DNA from: Nitrospirota bacterium
Lineage (GTDB): Bacteria; Nitrospirota; Thermodesulfovibrionia; Thermodesulfovibrionales; UBA1546
Length of the DNA stretch: 64,000 bases
Direction of reading: 5' to 3'
Assembly: GCA_016212165.1 (NCBI GenBank)
Contig: JACRGY010000104.1
Location: forward strand, 1-64,000
In this document: positions 3,890 to 61,420 of the stretch, in pieces
How the letters are laid out: every line of letters begins with the position of its first letter
Position numbering within the stretch: position 1 is the stretch's first letter
Made by a program: the position numbers and the translations under genes
The notes under the pieces: generated by a model
Databases searched by the model: none
Told to the model about the DNA's origin: nothing
Seen by the model: the letters and a program-made list of their open reading frames with translations, nothing else

Positions 3890-4671
3890 TAGATATCCAC
3901 TGTCATATACTTCCGGGTATAGATGACGGTCCTGAAACAATAGATGAAGCTGTTGAAATGTGCCGCATGGCGCATGCCGACGGCGTAAAAACAATAGTTG
4001 CCACCCCGCATTTCAATCCCGGTGTTTATGAACCCGCCTCTGCAAAGGTTTTTGGACTGGCAGCTGAACTTGAGACAAGGGCAAAAGAAAAAGGGATTGA
4101 TATAAGGATATTGCCCGGCGCTGATGTTGCTGTTACCCCGGAATTGCCCGGACATTTAAAAAAGGAAGAATATCTGACAATCAACAGTACCGGCAGATAC
4201 TTCCTTGCAGAATTTCCGCCTGCGTCGGTCCCGCCTAAATGGGATGCATTCCTGCTTTCATTATTGAGTTCAGGCATGGTTCCGATAATTACCCATCCTG
4301 AGAGGAATGCATGGTTTATGGAGCATCCTGACGCCTTATATTCTATTGTAAGCAGAGGCGTTATGGTACAGATAACTGCAATGAGCATAACAGGCGCTTT
4401 TGGCGAAGATATACAGAGATACAGTATTTTTCTCCTTCAAAATAATCTTGTGCATGTGATTGCCACTGATGCCCACTCTGCTGCTTACAGGCCGCCGCTG
4501 CTGTCAGAGGCTGTAAAAATGTCTTCGGATATGATAGGGGAAGATAAAGCCAAAGCACTGGTAACAACCATTCCTGTCGCAATCATAGAAGGGAAATCTG
4601 TTTCACTGCCTGAGCCTGTTCGGCCTCGCGGGAAGAAAAAAGGATGGCTTCAGAAAGTATTTCTCCACTAA
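3886..4671 (+). CDS. CpsB/YwqE-type PHP tyrosine-protein phosphatase
   Basis: MIDIHCHILPGIDDGPET; adjacent to BY-kinase with 4-nt overlap. Confidence 0.9.
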   Translation: MIDIHCHILPGIDDGPETIDEAVEMCRMAHADGVKTIVATPHFNPGVYEPASAKVFGLAAELETRAKEKGIDIRILPGADVAVTPELPGHLKKEEYLTINSTGRYFLAEFPPASVPPKWDAFLLSLLSSGMVPIITHPERNAWFMEHPDALYSIVSRGVMVQITAMSITGAFGEDIQRYSIFLLQNNLVHVIATDAHSAAYRPPLLSEAVKMSSDMIGEDKAKALVTTIPVAIIEGKSVSLPEPVRPRGKKKGWLQKVFLH

Positions 4672-6122
4672 AAGGCAACAAGGGAGGATTACTCGATGCC
4701 GTAATAGAAAGAGGCATTATCCTTCTTTTGATATTTACTCCATTAGCTATCGGGACCGTGCAGCAATGGTCTATAGCCATTATGGAGATAGTTGCTTTTA
4801 TTGTATTTGGCGCATGGCTGATGAAAGCGCAGGGCGCAAAGCGCATAGAGCAGGGAGCAGAGGGCAGAGAGCAAGGAGCAAAACCCCTGTTGCTGATTTT
4901 TATTGGCAGCCTCATACTTATTACAATCCTTCAGATTATTCCTTTGTCCGAACAGCTTCTGTCATTAATTTCACCTTCCAGCAGCAGCGTATATAAAACA
5001 TTCACAAACGATGCTGCCGGCAGTTGGCGGACCATAAGTATTTATCCGGATGCTACGAGAGGGGAACTCTTCAAGCTTCTCTCGTATGCAGCTATTTTCC
5101 TTGTAATAATTAATCATTACAGGACAAGGGCGCAGGTATACGGCATCATCCATACCGTAATTTATATTGGATGCTTTCTGGTAATATTTGCAATAATCCA
5201 GAAAATGACATGGAACGGAAGGCTTTTCTGGTTTTATCCCTTAAGGCAGAACCTGAATTCTGACATGGCTTATATCTGGGGCCCCTATATAAATCACAAT
5301 CATTTTGCAGGATATTTAGAGATGGCAATACCTCTGGCTATGGGGTTTCTGCTTTATAAGGCATCAAATATAAAGAGCCTGCCCGGAATTCCATTGAGTA
5401 AAAAAATTGCCAATTTTTCAGACAGCGGCAGCATTGTGCCAATGGTTTTTTTGTCCCTGAGTGTCTTAATTATGTCCGGCGGCCTTTTTATAAGTTTATC
5501 AAGAGGAGGCATAATAGGTTTTACAGTATCAATGGTTTTTTTTACAGGCATAACACGCACAAGAAGGTCCTTAAGGAAAAAGGCAGGGGTTTTTGCATTG
5601 TTGGGGATTTTAATATTTTTCGGGGTTGTGATGACAAGCTGGAGCCGCATAGAAGACAGATTTCAGGAGATAGGAAAAGAAGGCAGGATAATGAGGATAT
5701 ATGTATGGCGCGACACAGCAAATATTATCAAAGACTTTCCTGCCTTTGGAACAGGGCTGGGTACATTCAGAAGCATTTATCCGCAATACCAGACAAAATA
5801 CTCGCAATTCTTATTTGAACATGCAGAGAATGATTATATCGAGATATTGACTGATACGGGTTTTGCTGGATTTACGGTTGTAATAAGTATGGTTATTGTA
5901 TTTTTCTGCGCTGTTATTAAGGCATGGCGCCGGAGGCACAATATATTTGTAAAGTGTATGGTTGCAGGCGGGCTTTCTTCCTGCGTTGCCATAGCAGCTC
6001 ACAGTTTTACGGATTTTAACATGCGCATTCCGGCAAACGCCCTGCTGCTGACAGTAATAGCAGCGCTCACCTATGCAGCCGTCTACAATGTGAGGGAGAA
6101 GAAAGCACATGAAAGTAATTAA
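4644..6122 (+). CDS. O-antigen ligase/polymerase-like membrane protein (Wzy_C family)
   Basis: Multi-TM; SLSRGGIIGF and HAENDYIEILTDTGFAGF motifs. Confidence 0.82.
   Translation: MASESISPLKGNKGGLLDAVIERGIILLLIFTPLAIGTVQQWSIAIMEIVAFIVFGAWLMKAQGAKRIEQGAEGREQGAKPLLLIFIGSLILITILQIIPLSEQLLSLISPSSSSVYKTFTNDAAGSWRTISIYPDATRGELFKLLSYAAIFLVIINHYRTRAQVYGIIHTVIYIGCFLVIFAIIQKMTWNGRLFWFYPLRQNLNSDMAYIWGPYINHNHFAGYLEMAIPLAMGFLLYKASNIKSLPGIPLSKKIANFSDSGSIVPMVFLSLSVLIMSGGLFISLSRGGIIGFTVSMVFFTGITRTRRSLRKKAGVFALLGILIFFGVVMTSWSRIEDRFQEIGKEGRIMRIYVWRDTANIIKDFPAFGTGLGTFRSIYPQYQTKYSQFLFEHAENDYIEILTDTGFAGFTVVISMVIVFFCAVIKAWRRRHNIFVKCMVAGGLSSCVAIAAHSFTDFNMRIPANALLLTVIAALTYAAVYNVREKKAHESN
4827..4882 (+). repeat. Phased heptamer array (8 x 7 nt) inside the Wzy-like ORF
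   Basis: gcgcagg gcgcaaa gcgcata gagcagg gagcaga gggcaga gagcaag gagcaaa. Confidence 0.85.
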
Positions 6123-6873
6123 ACCACTGGTTATTTTCTTGGTTATTGGTATTTTTCTGTCTTTTCCCGCGCGGGCTCTTATGGCGGATTATTATTACAA
6201 CAGGGTATCCCGCATCCTTGACGACAGGTCAACAGAGCACAGAGATTTTAAAGCCATTTCAGGCGATACAATGGCAAGTTACAATGATGCGATAAAATCT
6301 TTGAATAAGGCAGCAGCTATTGTTCCGTCAAGGCCTGTTTATTACAAAGCCCTGTCAGATATCTACGCAAAGCTGGGAAGATGGGCCGAGAACATGGATG
6401 CCGTGAATGCCCCATTGCCGGCTGATGCCCCATCAAGCCAGGAAGCCTTCAGGACTGCAATCAAGCACCTTAATAAGGCAATCTCACTTGAACCTACAAA
6501 TCCGGATTATCACCTTGCGCTTGGCAGGTTATATGATGCAACAGCAGGCGACAGGCCATATTCCGATAATGAATTTCAAAGAGCGCTTAAGGCATATCCT
6601 GTAAATGCTCCCTTAAGGTCTGCGGTTGCAAAGCACTATCTCCTTACAGGTAAAAACGGAGACGCCCTTGAACAGGCGAGGATACTTGCAAGGATTGATG
6701 AGAGTTACAGGGCCTCTGCTCCTGCAAGGCTGGCCAGCTATCTCTTTGGAGCGTTCGAGATAGCATGGAGGGTTTCAGGAGATACAGAGGTGGTAAAGGG
6801 CATGGCCCCTGATAACCCTGATGCAAAAGAGGTGCTTAGATTGTTTCTGGAGTGGAAGGGGATAGAGGAATAG
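6109..6873 (+). CDS. Tetratricopeptide-repeat protein of EPS locus
   Basis: TPR-like repeats (AIKSLNKAAAIVPSRPVYYKALSDIYAKLG; AIKHLNKAISLEPTNPDYHLALGRLY). Confidence 0.75.
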   Translation: MKVIKPLVIFLVIGIFLSFPARALMADYYYNRVSRILDDRSTEHRDFKAISGDTMASYNDAIKSLNKAAAIVPSRPVYYKALSDIYAKLGRWAENMDAVNAPLPADAPSSQEAFRTAIKHLNKAISLEPTNPDYHLALGRLYDATAGDRPYSDNEFQRALKAYPVNAPLRSAVAKHYLLTGKNGDALEQARILARIDESYRASAPARLASYLFGAFEIAWRVSGDTEVVKGMAPDNPDAKEVLRLFLEWKGIEE

Positions 6874-6883
6874 AGACGTGAAA

Positions 6884-6972
6884 GTAGTTATTAAGAGTTA
6901 TTAGGCATTGTTATTAAATTGTTATTAAGTAGTTAGTCGTAGTTATTAATAGGTAGTTATTGTTATTGTGGA
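6884..6972. repeat. GTTATTA-rich tract upstream of four-helix-bundle gene
   Basis: Repeated gttatta/agttatt words. Confidence 0.7.
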
Positions 6973-6981
6973 GGGGATTAA

Positions 6982-7350
6982 TTGGAGCTTGAAAAACTAA
7001 ACGTTTACCAGATTGCAAGGGAACTCAGTTTAATTGGATGGGATATTTACAAAGGCATGAAAAATGAGCATAGGTTTTCTATCGGCCAACAGTTCTTAAG
7101 GTCCATTGACTCAATAGGCGCAAACATTGCCGAGGGATACGGAAGATATCATTACTTGGACTCAGCAAAATTTTATTATAATGCAAGAGGATCTCTATGG
7201 GAAGCAAAACACTGGACATCACTGCTTCAGGAGAGGAAGTTAATTGATAAGGGAACATACGCAGATCTAAACGGGAGATTGGAAGTCCTTGGGGTAAAAC
7301 TTAATAACTTCATCTCTGCAATCAAGGCAAAAGCAAATACCCATAAATGA
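6982..7350 (+). CDS. Four-helix-bundle protein (S23 rRNA intervening-sequence/bAvd-like family); TTG start
   Basis: LNVYQIARELSLIGWDIYKGM...SIGQQFLRSIDSIGANIAEGYGR typical of the S23/IVP family; GGAGGGG upstream. Confidence 0.85.
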   Translation: MELEKLNVYQIARELSLIGWDIYKGMKNEHRFSIGQQFLRSIDSIGANIAEGYGRYHYLDSAKFYYNARGSLWEAKHWTSLLQERKLIDKGTYADLNGRLEVLGVKLNNFISAIKAKANTHK

Positions 7351-7364
7351 TTTTTGGAAGTAAA

Positions 7365-7442
7365 GGTTATTATTAAGTTATTAGGAGTTATTGGGTTATT
7401 GGTAGTTAATAACAATGAATAACTTAATAACCCTTAATAACC
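7365..7442. repeat. GTTATTA followed by TAATAAC tract, hairpin-capable
   Basis: ggttattattaagttattaggagttattgggttatt...aataacttaataacccttaataacc. Confidence 0.7.
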
Positions 7443-7462
7443 ATGACTCTCGGAGTTAAATC

Positions 7463-8059
7463 ATGAAGAAAAACCACGTAGTCTGGCATAAAGTTAATGT
7501 GAACAGGCAAGACCGAAATCACCTTAATAACCATAAGAGCGGGCTTCTCTGGTTCACCGGCCTGTCTGCTTCAGGGAAGTCAACAATTGCGCACAGCGTT
7601 GAAAAGCAACTTTTTAAACGCGGATTCCGCACGTATGTGCTTGACGGCGATAATGTAAGGCACGGCATAAACAGCAATCTCGGTTTCAGCCGTGAAGATA
7701 GGAAGGAAAACCTTCGAAGGATTGCAGAGGTCTCAATGCTTTTTGTTGATGCAGGCATTCTTGTGCTCGCAGCATTTATCTCTCCGTACAAGGCAGACAG
7801 GGAATATATCAGGAAACAATTTGAAGGTGATAATTTCCTTGAGATATACGTGAAATGTCCTGTAGAAGAATGTGAAAAGCGCGATCCAAAAGGCCAGTAC
7901 AAAAAGGCAAGGGCAGGGATAATAAAAAATTATACAGGTGTTTCTGCTCCGTATGAAGAACCTGAAAATCCTGACCTGATATTAGATACAGAAAAAAAGC
8001 CACTCAAAGAATCTGTGGATGCGGTTATTGATTTGTTGGCTGAGAGAGGTTATTTGTAG
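7463..8059 (+). CDS. cysC: Adenylyl-sulfate kinase
   Basis: WFTGLSASGKSTIA; LDGDNVRHGINSNLGFSREDRKENLRR; CPVEECEKRDPKGQYKKARAG. Confidence 0.93.
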   Translation: MKKNHVVWHKVNVNRQDRNHLNNHKSGLLWFTGLSASGKSTIAHSVEKQLFKRGFRTYVLDGDNVRHGINSNLGFSREDRKENLRRIAEVSMLFVDAGILVLAAFISPYKADREYIRKQFEGDNFLEIYVKCPVEECEKRDPKGQYKKARAGIIKNYTGVSAPYEEPENPDLILDTEKKPLKESVDAVIDLLAERGYL

Positions 8060-8178
8060 TTATTAAAAGGTAGTAAGGTAATTTATTGTAAGTTGTAGTT
8101 ATTAATTAGTTAGTTATTGGTATTAATAAAAATAACCACAAATAACAATTAATGACGTAATAACCCTTAATAACTAAT
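8058..8178. repeat. Second GTTATTA then TAATAAC tract
   Basis: Shares exact taataacccttaataac (8158-8174) with 7425-7441. Confidence 0.7.
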
Positions 8179-8261
8179 TCAGGCAATGCTCTGCGCTCTG
8201 CTCTTAAACCGTGTCCCTCTTAGGTTATAATGCTGAGAAACAACATCCCCAATTCTGGATT

Positions 8262-48789: not shown

Positions 48790-49794
48790 TTAAAAATCAA
48801 CTGCAACTTCCCTTGAAAATTCGCTTTCTTTTGACGGCCCGACGGCAGTTATTTTATAGACATGCTTTGTGCCTGTTTTTTCTCTGTCGGTGAATGCAGG
48901 GGTTACGGGTTCTCCGGCAAGTTTGAACCCTTCTTCTTCATTTGTCTTGCGGTAAACCCTGTATTTTTTTACCCATGCCTCCGGATTTTCCTTCCATGAT
49001 ATAACGGCCTTATCACCCGCAAAGATTGCCTGAAGCCCCTCCGGCCTTGAGGGTATAAAGTCTACAGGGTTAACTCCTATTTCATCTGATGCAGGGCCTT
49101 CATTCCGGTATTCATTATTAAGCGCACCCCTGACCGTGTAATAGACAGTCTTGTCCATATCAAAATTATCAGAGTATGATGTTGTTTTTGTTGGCTCAGC
49201 GTTTACAGGATTAATGCCGTATTTCCCTTTCTCATCGGTTCTGTAAATATTGTAAAGCACATTTTCGCCCGTGCTATCCCATGAAACGTTCAGGGCATCA
49301 TTGCCAACCTTGAATGATATATTCTTCGGGGCAGGGGGGACGACTTCAGGCTTTATTATGATTATATTAGAATCATCGCTGAGGACTTTTTTCAGGCTTC
49401 CGGCAACGACTTTGTATTTGTAAAAAGCGCCTGTCTTAAAGTTAACGTCTGTGTAGGAACTTTCCTCCCTGGTTACAGACGCTATTTTCTGAAAACTGCT
49501 GTCTTCTGCCCTGAGAATATAAAATTCTTTAAGATTTTCTTTTTTGTTATATGCCCAGGACAGGATAATATTGCTTTCTCTGTGGATTGCCTTAAGGCCC
49601 GACGGAGCATCGGGTTTTTCATAGGCCTTAAGCGTCGGAGGTTCTTTTTTGCCGCAGGCAACCGAAAGAACACAGAATACGCAAATAATAAAGAATAGAC
49701 GAATGGGTGAATAGGTGAATGGGCGAATAGGTGAATCGGATGACGGCTGATAGTCGTTGCGACTCAAAACCGAGCTGATAGCCGATAACCTCAT
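48790..49794 (-). CDS. Fibronectin type III domain lipoprotein
   Basis: Lipobox LSVACG; repeated [23 protein letters not shown] / [23 protein letters not shown]-type modules. Confidence 0.78.
49693..49740. repeat. Phased octamer array (6 x 8 nt) in 5' end of FnIII lipoprotein ORF
   Basis: gaatagac gaatgggt gaataggt gaatgggc gaataggt gaatcgga. Confidence 0.85.
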
Positions 49795-61248: not shown

Positions 61249-61341
61249 GGAGAGGTGGCCGAGTAGGTCGAAGGCAGCCGCCTGCTAAGCGGTTGTGGGG
61301 GTAAAACTTCACCCAGGGTTCGAATCCCTGCCTCTCCGCCA
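61249..61341 (+). tRNA. tRNA-Ser (anticodon GCT)
   Basis: ggagagg...cctgctaagcgg...ggttcgaatcc...cctctccgcca, encoded CCA, long variable arm. Confidence 0.95.
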
Positions 61342-61397
61342 GTGAACAGAAGTGAGAAGTTAGAAGTAAATTGTAACTTTTAACTTATAACTATATA
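61342..61397. repeat. Phased heptamer array (8 x 7 nt) directly abutting tRNA-Ser
   Basis: gtgaaca gaagtga gaagtta gaagtaa attgtaa cttttaa cttataa ctatata. Confidence 0.75.
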
Positions 61398-61420
61398 ATT
61401 TTTTTTAAAGGAGGTTCTAA

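Follow-up and report, generated by a model that had tools for sequence, protein, structure and literature searches.

The window, as we call the whole stretch of 64,000 nucleotides of Nitrospirota DNA analysed here, carries a small gene of the S23/IVP family that lies between the protein genes TPR and cysC, and not within an rRNA gene. An earlier note on this DNA had described a TTG-start gene of this family lying among GTTATTA/TAATAAC tracts, and the features of the locus bear out that description:

6884–6972, forward strand: upstream arm of GTTATT cores with variable spacers (cores at 6887, 6897, 6910, 6921, 6942, 6956 and 6962)
6970–6976, forward strand: GGAGGGG, which by sequence reading probably serves the S23 gene as ribosome-binding site
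6982–7350, forward strand: S23/IVP four-helix-bundle gene, TTG start, 122 amino acids (PF05635, TIGR02436, AF2 model, fold match)
7365–7442, no strand assigned: downstream tract, first GTTATT and then AATAAC cores; forms a hairpin with itself and is also a partner of the upstream arm (RNA fold, shuffles)
7425–7441, forward strand: TAATAACCCTTAATAAC, copy 1
7463–8059, forward strand: cysC, adenylylsulfate kinase, separating the S23 element from the gene-less array
8049–8178, no strand assigned: third tract, a gene-less satellite, GTTATT cores followed by AATAAC cores (pattern, shuffles)
8158–8174, forward strand: TAATAACCCTTAATAAC, copy 2

The tracts lie where the earlier note had placed them, except that the third begins at 8049, within the final codons of cysC, rather than at 8058; the exact sequence that the last two tracts were said to have in common is TAATAACCCTTAATAAC. 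Profile searches assign the ORF to PF05635 (87.5 bits, cut-off 33.8) and TIGR02436 (85 bits, cut-off 24), and its AF2 monomer model consists of four helices with a pLDDT of 95.8. The folds closest to this model are those of the solved S23 proteins 2gsc (TM 0.84–0.95) and 2rld (TM 0.75–0.90), after which ranks Avd (4dwl; TM 0.76–0.89, 11–12% identity), a protein of diversity-generating retroelements (DGRs).

The ends around the S23 ORF are complementary, with arms at 6882–6903 and 8158–8179 that match at 91%. Measured against 1,000 dinucleotide shuffles, the upstream tract scored 42 with the reverse complement of the downstream tract (shuffle maximum 30) and 47 with that of the third tract (maximum 35), and direct comparison of the downstream and third tracts gave 53 (maximum 38). 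Folded as RNA, the downstream tract reached z=−4.8 and the third tract only z=−1.6. Core starts in the upstream arm are 6–21 nt apart, a spacing that suggests an array of separate sites with spacers of variable length and not simple slippage of a fixed unit. A GTTATT-array pattern of three cores has nine matches in the whole of its own genome, all of them within the three tracts, and zero matches in 56 of 60 relatives. Short repeats arise easily in AT-rich intergenic sequence, and the tracts could have been chance low-complexity sequence of this sort; this explanation is refuted, its probability being close to nil, by the shuffles, by the confinement of the pattern to the window locus within the genome, and by the control genes and AT matching reported below. 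An Rfam search returned as its sole match a weak miRNA, far under the cut-off, and the PADLOC defence models gave no match.

The closest S23 relatives of the window gene, at L035 (Deltaproteobacteria), L036 (Nitrospirae) and L164, are accompanied by GTTATT-type arrays too. A search for an empty site found the export genes of the window in one distant relative only (G056), in which a sugar nucleotidyltransferase-like ORF follows the TPR part, with no S23 gene there. This single comparison does not establish the recombination boundary suggested in the earlier note. In that relative, O-antigen ligase and TPR are fused as one ORF (L176, 1492–3711), where the window has two overlapping genes (4644–6122 and 6109–6873).

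We then read the flanks of S23 genes from 60 related genomes, mostly drafts and in some cases incomplete, and from unrelated phyla, using a profile built for the purpose; the window's own genome (G000) is itself a draft of 202 contigs with an estimated 8% contamination. An S23 match above the cut-off is present in 37 of 61 genomes. Taking 160 bp on each side of a gene, we scored the local match between the upstream flank and the reverse complement of the downstream flank, with 583 other genes of the same loci, called simply as longest ORFs, as controls. The median score was 31 for 157 distinct S23 genes and 16 for the controls (p=8e-47). The S23 genes lay above the 95th percentile of the controls in 70% of cases and above the 99th in 44%; for about 30% the inverted flank did not rise above controls. 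The excess survives when one gene per cluster is kept and AT content is matched. The test proposed by the earlier note, whether S23 genes are flanked by their own repeat more often than other genes, thus has a strongly positive outcome, which lends support to its suggestion of a minimal mobile or repeat-spreading unit.

When flanks were paired across different elements the score returned to 16, which means that every S23 element has its own unit. The excess is more marked outside the window's own order (84% in other taxa, 58% within the order). The units are degenerate, and a strict period, where visible, is most often 7 or 8 nt; tandem-repeat coverage alone places 25% of S23 genes above the control 95th percentile, compared with the 70% obtained by inverted similarity. 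Among 12 plasmid-borne S23 genes, 11 of them cyanobacterial, eight exceed the same percentile, with units that include GGGAGTA and GGGAACA. The proteins themselves are under purifying selection (median dN/dS 0.09 in 40 pairs). Nowhere in the open-access literature that we searched were S23 genes outside rRNA described as flanked by repeats.

The repeat unit follows the S23 protein and not the host genome. Pairs of S23 proteins that reside in different genomes and are at least 60% identical have a unit in common in 63% of cases, whereas for pairs within one genome that fall below 60% identity the figure is 1.3%. Across phyla, the unit is common to 43% of pairs with at least 60% identity and to 0.4% of those below 35%. 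Similarity of the tracts in 6-mers correlates with protein identity with a Mantel r of 0.50, and of 0.41 once pairs with any shared neighbour protein are dropped (permutations reached at most 0.05), values to be read with the pairs not being independent.

Arrays of the same unit also occur without a gene. They were found elsewhere in the locus in 29 of 116 cases, as against 16 of 2,320 scans with foreign units (0.7%); examples are the third tract of the window and the junctions of a CODH/ACS operon (L151). In a pilin operon (L158), three junctions bear arrays, the first of which holds an S23 gene in its loop. The window's own genome has one gene-less GTTATT copy only, adjoining the S23 gene. 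Four near-identical gene-less copies in G005 were considered as independent insertions and rejected, as their flanking sequence is common too and they look like duplicated genes.

Genome-wide counts, made by pattern searches for three further units over the 61 genomes, were for each unit highest among genomes with an S23 of that unit, the holders of a unit being those known among the S23 loci read. For GTTCACN, the highest count (42 matches, with 21 in the next genome) belongs to G004, the only genome read with an S23 of this unit. The prediction of holder ranks for GATGCAN and GTTTGANNC was fixed before counting. The GATGCAN holders G005 and G009 took ranks 1 and 2 with 604 and 263 matches, and a third holder, G001, which has a GATGCA-type S23, came only seventh (p=8e-4, or 0.02 within the family); rank 3 went to G014, a 74% complete genome without known holder status. 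For GTTTGANNC, the holders G020 and G021 ranked first and third, and second came G044, in which a truncated S23 match adjoins the array (p=7e-5). Reversed-pattern controls gave zero or near-zero counts.

These data bear on the possibility that the arrays are spread by some other machine (a RAYT-type Y1 transposase, replication slippage or recombination) and that S23 is a passenger favouring such hairpins. Y1 genes are indeed commoner in genomes with S23 (32 of 37) than in the others (14 of 24, p=0.017), and they too are flanked by inverted repeats, in some cases with tandem arrays alongside. A passenger, however, would adopt the unit of its host, and the unit instead follows the protein; moreover, five S23 genomes (G009, G010, G014, G050 and G060) have no match to either Y1_Tnp or RVT_1, and G009, with its 263 GATGCA matches, is one of them. 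We regard a passenger role as unlikely. A Y1 transposase as necessary driver was rejected on the same five genomes, despite the weak association.

RAYT-like genes of the same genomes have a median inverted-flank score of 30 (38 genes), with a repeat that is different and palindromic. Such Y1 genes lie between inverted copies, for example AGGGACACATCCCAT/ATGGGATGTGTCCCT, at L274 (G000:C110:11400-15800) and elsewhere among L237–L276, and some have tandem arrays just beyond the inverted copies.

A further alternative would make the window gene a remnant of Avd type or a component of a DGR. The kinship with Avd that the earlier note had raised stands as far as the fold is concerned (4dwl, 8ub7; sequence identity 11–14%) and is accompanied by a weak match to the PHROG Avd family (PHROG 3206). 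The accompanying reverse-transcriptase route is unsupported: RVT_1 has no match in the 202 contigs of the draft host genome, nor in the five S23 genomes named above, a lack that the earlier note had listed, in combination with missing repeat expansion, as counting against its idea. Reverse transcriptases show no association with S23 (14 of 37 genomes with it, 7 of 24 without, p=0.59), and what marks the family are inverted arrays rather than template and variable repeats. We consider a DGR origin highly improbable.

The positions of the elements are informative in their own right. In G011, an S23 element lies within a histidine kinase gene; this gene also occurs in six relatives, whose inserts at the same spot are short or gene-less, with units that differ between genomes. 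The junction at an endonuclease III-like gene contains S23 and arrays in G014 and is clean in G009 and G012, and a junction in an efflux operon has different inserts in congeners. Gene-less GATGCA hairpins are found in frame inside YbeY and a NuoC-type ORF. CRISPR arrays, too, have S23 elements within them or at their edges, and on cyanobacterial plasmids such elements occur inside cas operons (L327, L329, L330); a simple reading of the 18 IVP genes reported earlier in cas loci (PMC3936711) would be that they are insertions at operon junctions. Inspection by eye revealed no clear target-site duplication at site A. GTCGCAATCCCTTC flanks gene-less copies in a CRISPR array on both sides, although it may stem from the array's own repeats. 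At the edge of CRISPR arrays in G026 there are two near-identical broken S23 elements (L115, 8780–9900; L116, 8750–9300), next to which gene-less or remnant elements (GTGAAAGATAAAGTGAAAG...CTTTCACTTTATCTTTGG) lie inside the CRISPR repeats.

The main rival explanation holds that S23 is an RNA- or DNA-binding regulator serving the host, with the array hairpins as its sites, making up a regulon of operon-internal mRNA structures that the host has recruited. It would account for S23 elements being co-directional between their neighbours more often than other genes (100 of 127 versus 273 of 428, p=0.0017), for the purifying selection on the protein and for operons in which several junctions carry the same unit. 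It sits poorly with inserts that are in frame inside YbeY and kinase genes, or lie in CRISPR arrays, and with a unit that differs between congeners at one and the same junction. We judge that a regulatory role of this kind is improbable, though not more so than a passenger role.

Our preferred reading, to which we assign a probability of roughly 0.6, is that the window contains a member of a widespread class of small dispersing elements, in which a matched S23 protein and unit travel together and the protein probably helps the host to copy hairpins. In the full form, a short degenerate unit (in the window, GTTATT and a variable spacer) would make up inverted arrays, with the S23 gene in the loop that they enclose; the reduced form would be the array hairpin alone (here 8049–8178). 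Judging from its homologues, the protein is expected to form a pentameric ring, and it most probably binds multiple copies of its own unit, in DNA or RNA that is single-stranded. No catalytic activity is known for S23 homologues, and the copying itself must therefore fall to a different machine; most probably host replication or repair, helped by S23, copies the hairpin to new sites, for the most part operon junctions or tolerated loops inside genes. We infer the binding to the own unit, the role of S23 as driver and the copying step.

Such an element can be read, by analogy, as resembling REPIN/RAYT but with a protein that is not a transposase. In both, a gene lies between its own inverted repeats and gene-less inverted hairpin copies occur (PMC3116915), of which the window's own genome has the single one noted above, with many matches to cognate units in relatives; RAYT, however, is a transposase with a palindromic REP, whereas S23 is a four-helix protein with a degenerate short-unit array, and the partner gene in the window matches PF05635 only and no Y1 tyrosine transposase. 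The intervening sequence (IVS) of Coxiella 23S rRNA has an S23 ORF that is preceded by tandem heptamers and enclosed by complementary ends, which form a stem (PMC4990558). The rRNA IVSs differ in lying in rRNA genes and in being cut out by RNase III, whereas the neighbours of the window element are protein genes, gene-less copies of it exist, and its unit is paired with its protein. Because the Coxiella IVS has the same plan, rRNA IVSs look like special cases of the S23 element. Rickettsia palindromic elements are palindromic inserts in frame within protein genes and in this resemble the in-frame hairpins described here, but they are not short-unit arrays, and we know of no partner gene for them.

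Dispersed degenerate 7-nt arrays, mostly intergenic, have been described in Xanthomonas and Nostoc (PMC4692102) and in Beggiatoaceae (PMC4679880), with about 70–75 convergent pairs per Xanthomonas genome at positions that differ between related species. No gene is linked to these arrays there, and a link to S23 is a prediction of our reading. More tentatively, and with somewhat less than even probability, S23 proteins may be non-catalytic drivers of widespread miniature elements, each lineage with a private unit whose hairpins are multiplied via host replication or repair; many unexplained heptamer arrays (in cyanobacteria, GGGAATC in Xanthomonas, TAACTGA in Beggiatoaceae), together with rRNA IVSs, would be their products. 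The S23 structure 2gsc comes from X. campestris. S23/IVP proteins are known from many bacterial phyla, and structures of them have been available since 2006, yet to our knowledge no function has been assigned, and we likewise know of no origin for dispersed bacterial heptamer arrays. Since the pairing of protein and repeat can be read from sequence, both questions become directly testable, and the pairing may reveal an overlooked kind of dispersing element that itself encodes neither a transposase nor a reverse transcriptase that can be recognised.

Several other repeats were seen. A regular 12-nt array, GTTATTAGAGAC, occurs at G048:C22:45584-45685 and on G057:C3 and C142, partly at contig ends; G048 and G057 have no S23 match, and this array appears unrelated to the S23 arrays. 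In the window, a GCAGAGN heptamer array at 4826–4882 is in frame in the O-antigen ligase ORF, where it encodes QGAKRIEQGAEGREQGAK, and a related array lies before wecB on the other strand (8189–8207); the GCAGAGN array looks like a gene-less array of another unit. A degenerate octamer array, GAATAGGT/GAATGGGC, lies without S23 at 49693–49736, and a hairpin-like sequence, AGTGAACAGAAGTGAGAAGTTAG.../...TAACTTTTAACTTATAACT, at 61341–61398 directly follows tRNA-Ser(gct) (61249–61341).
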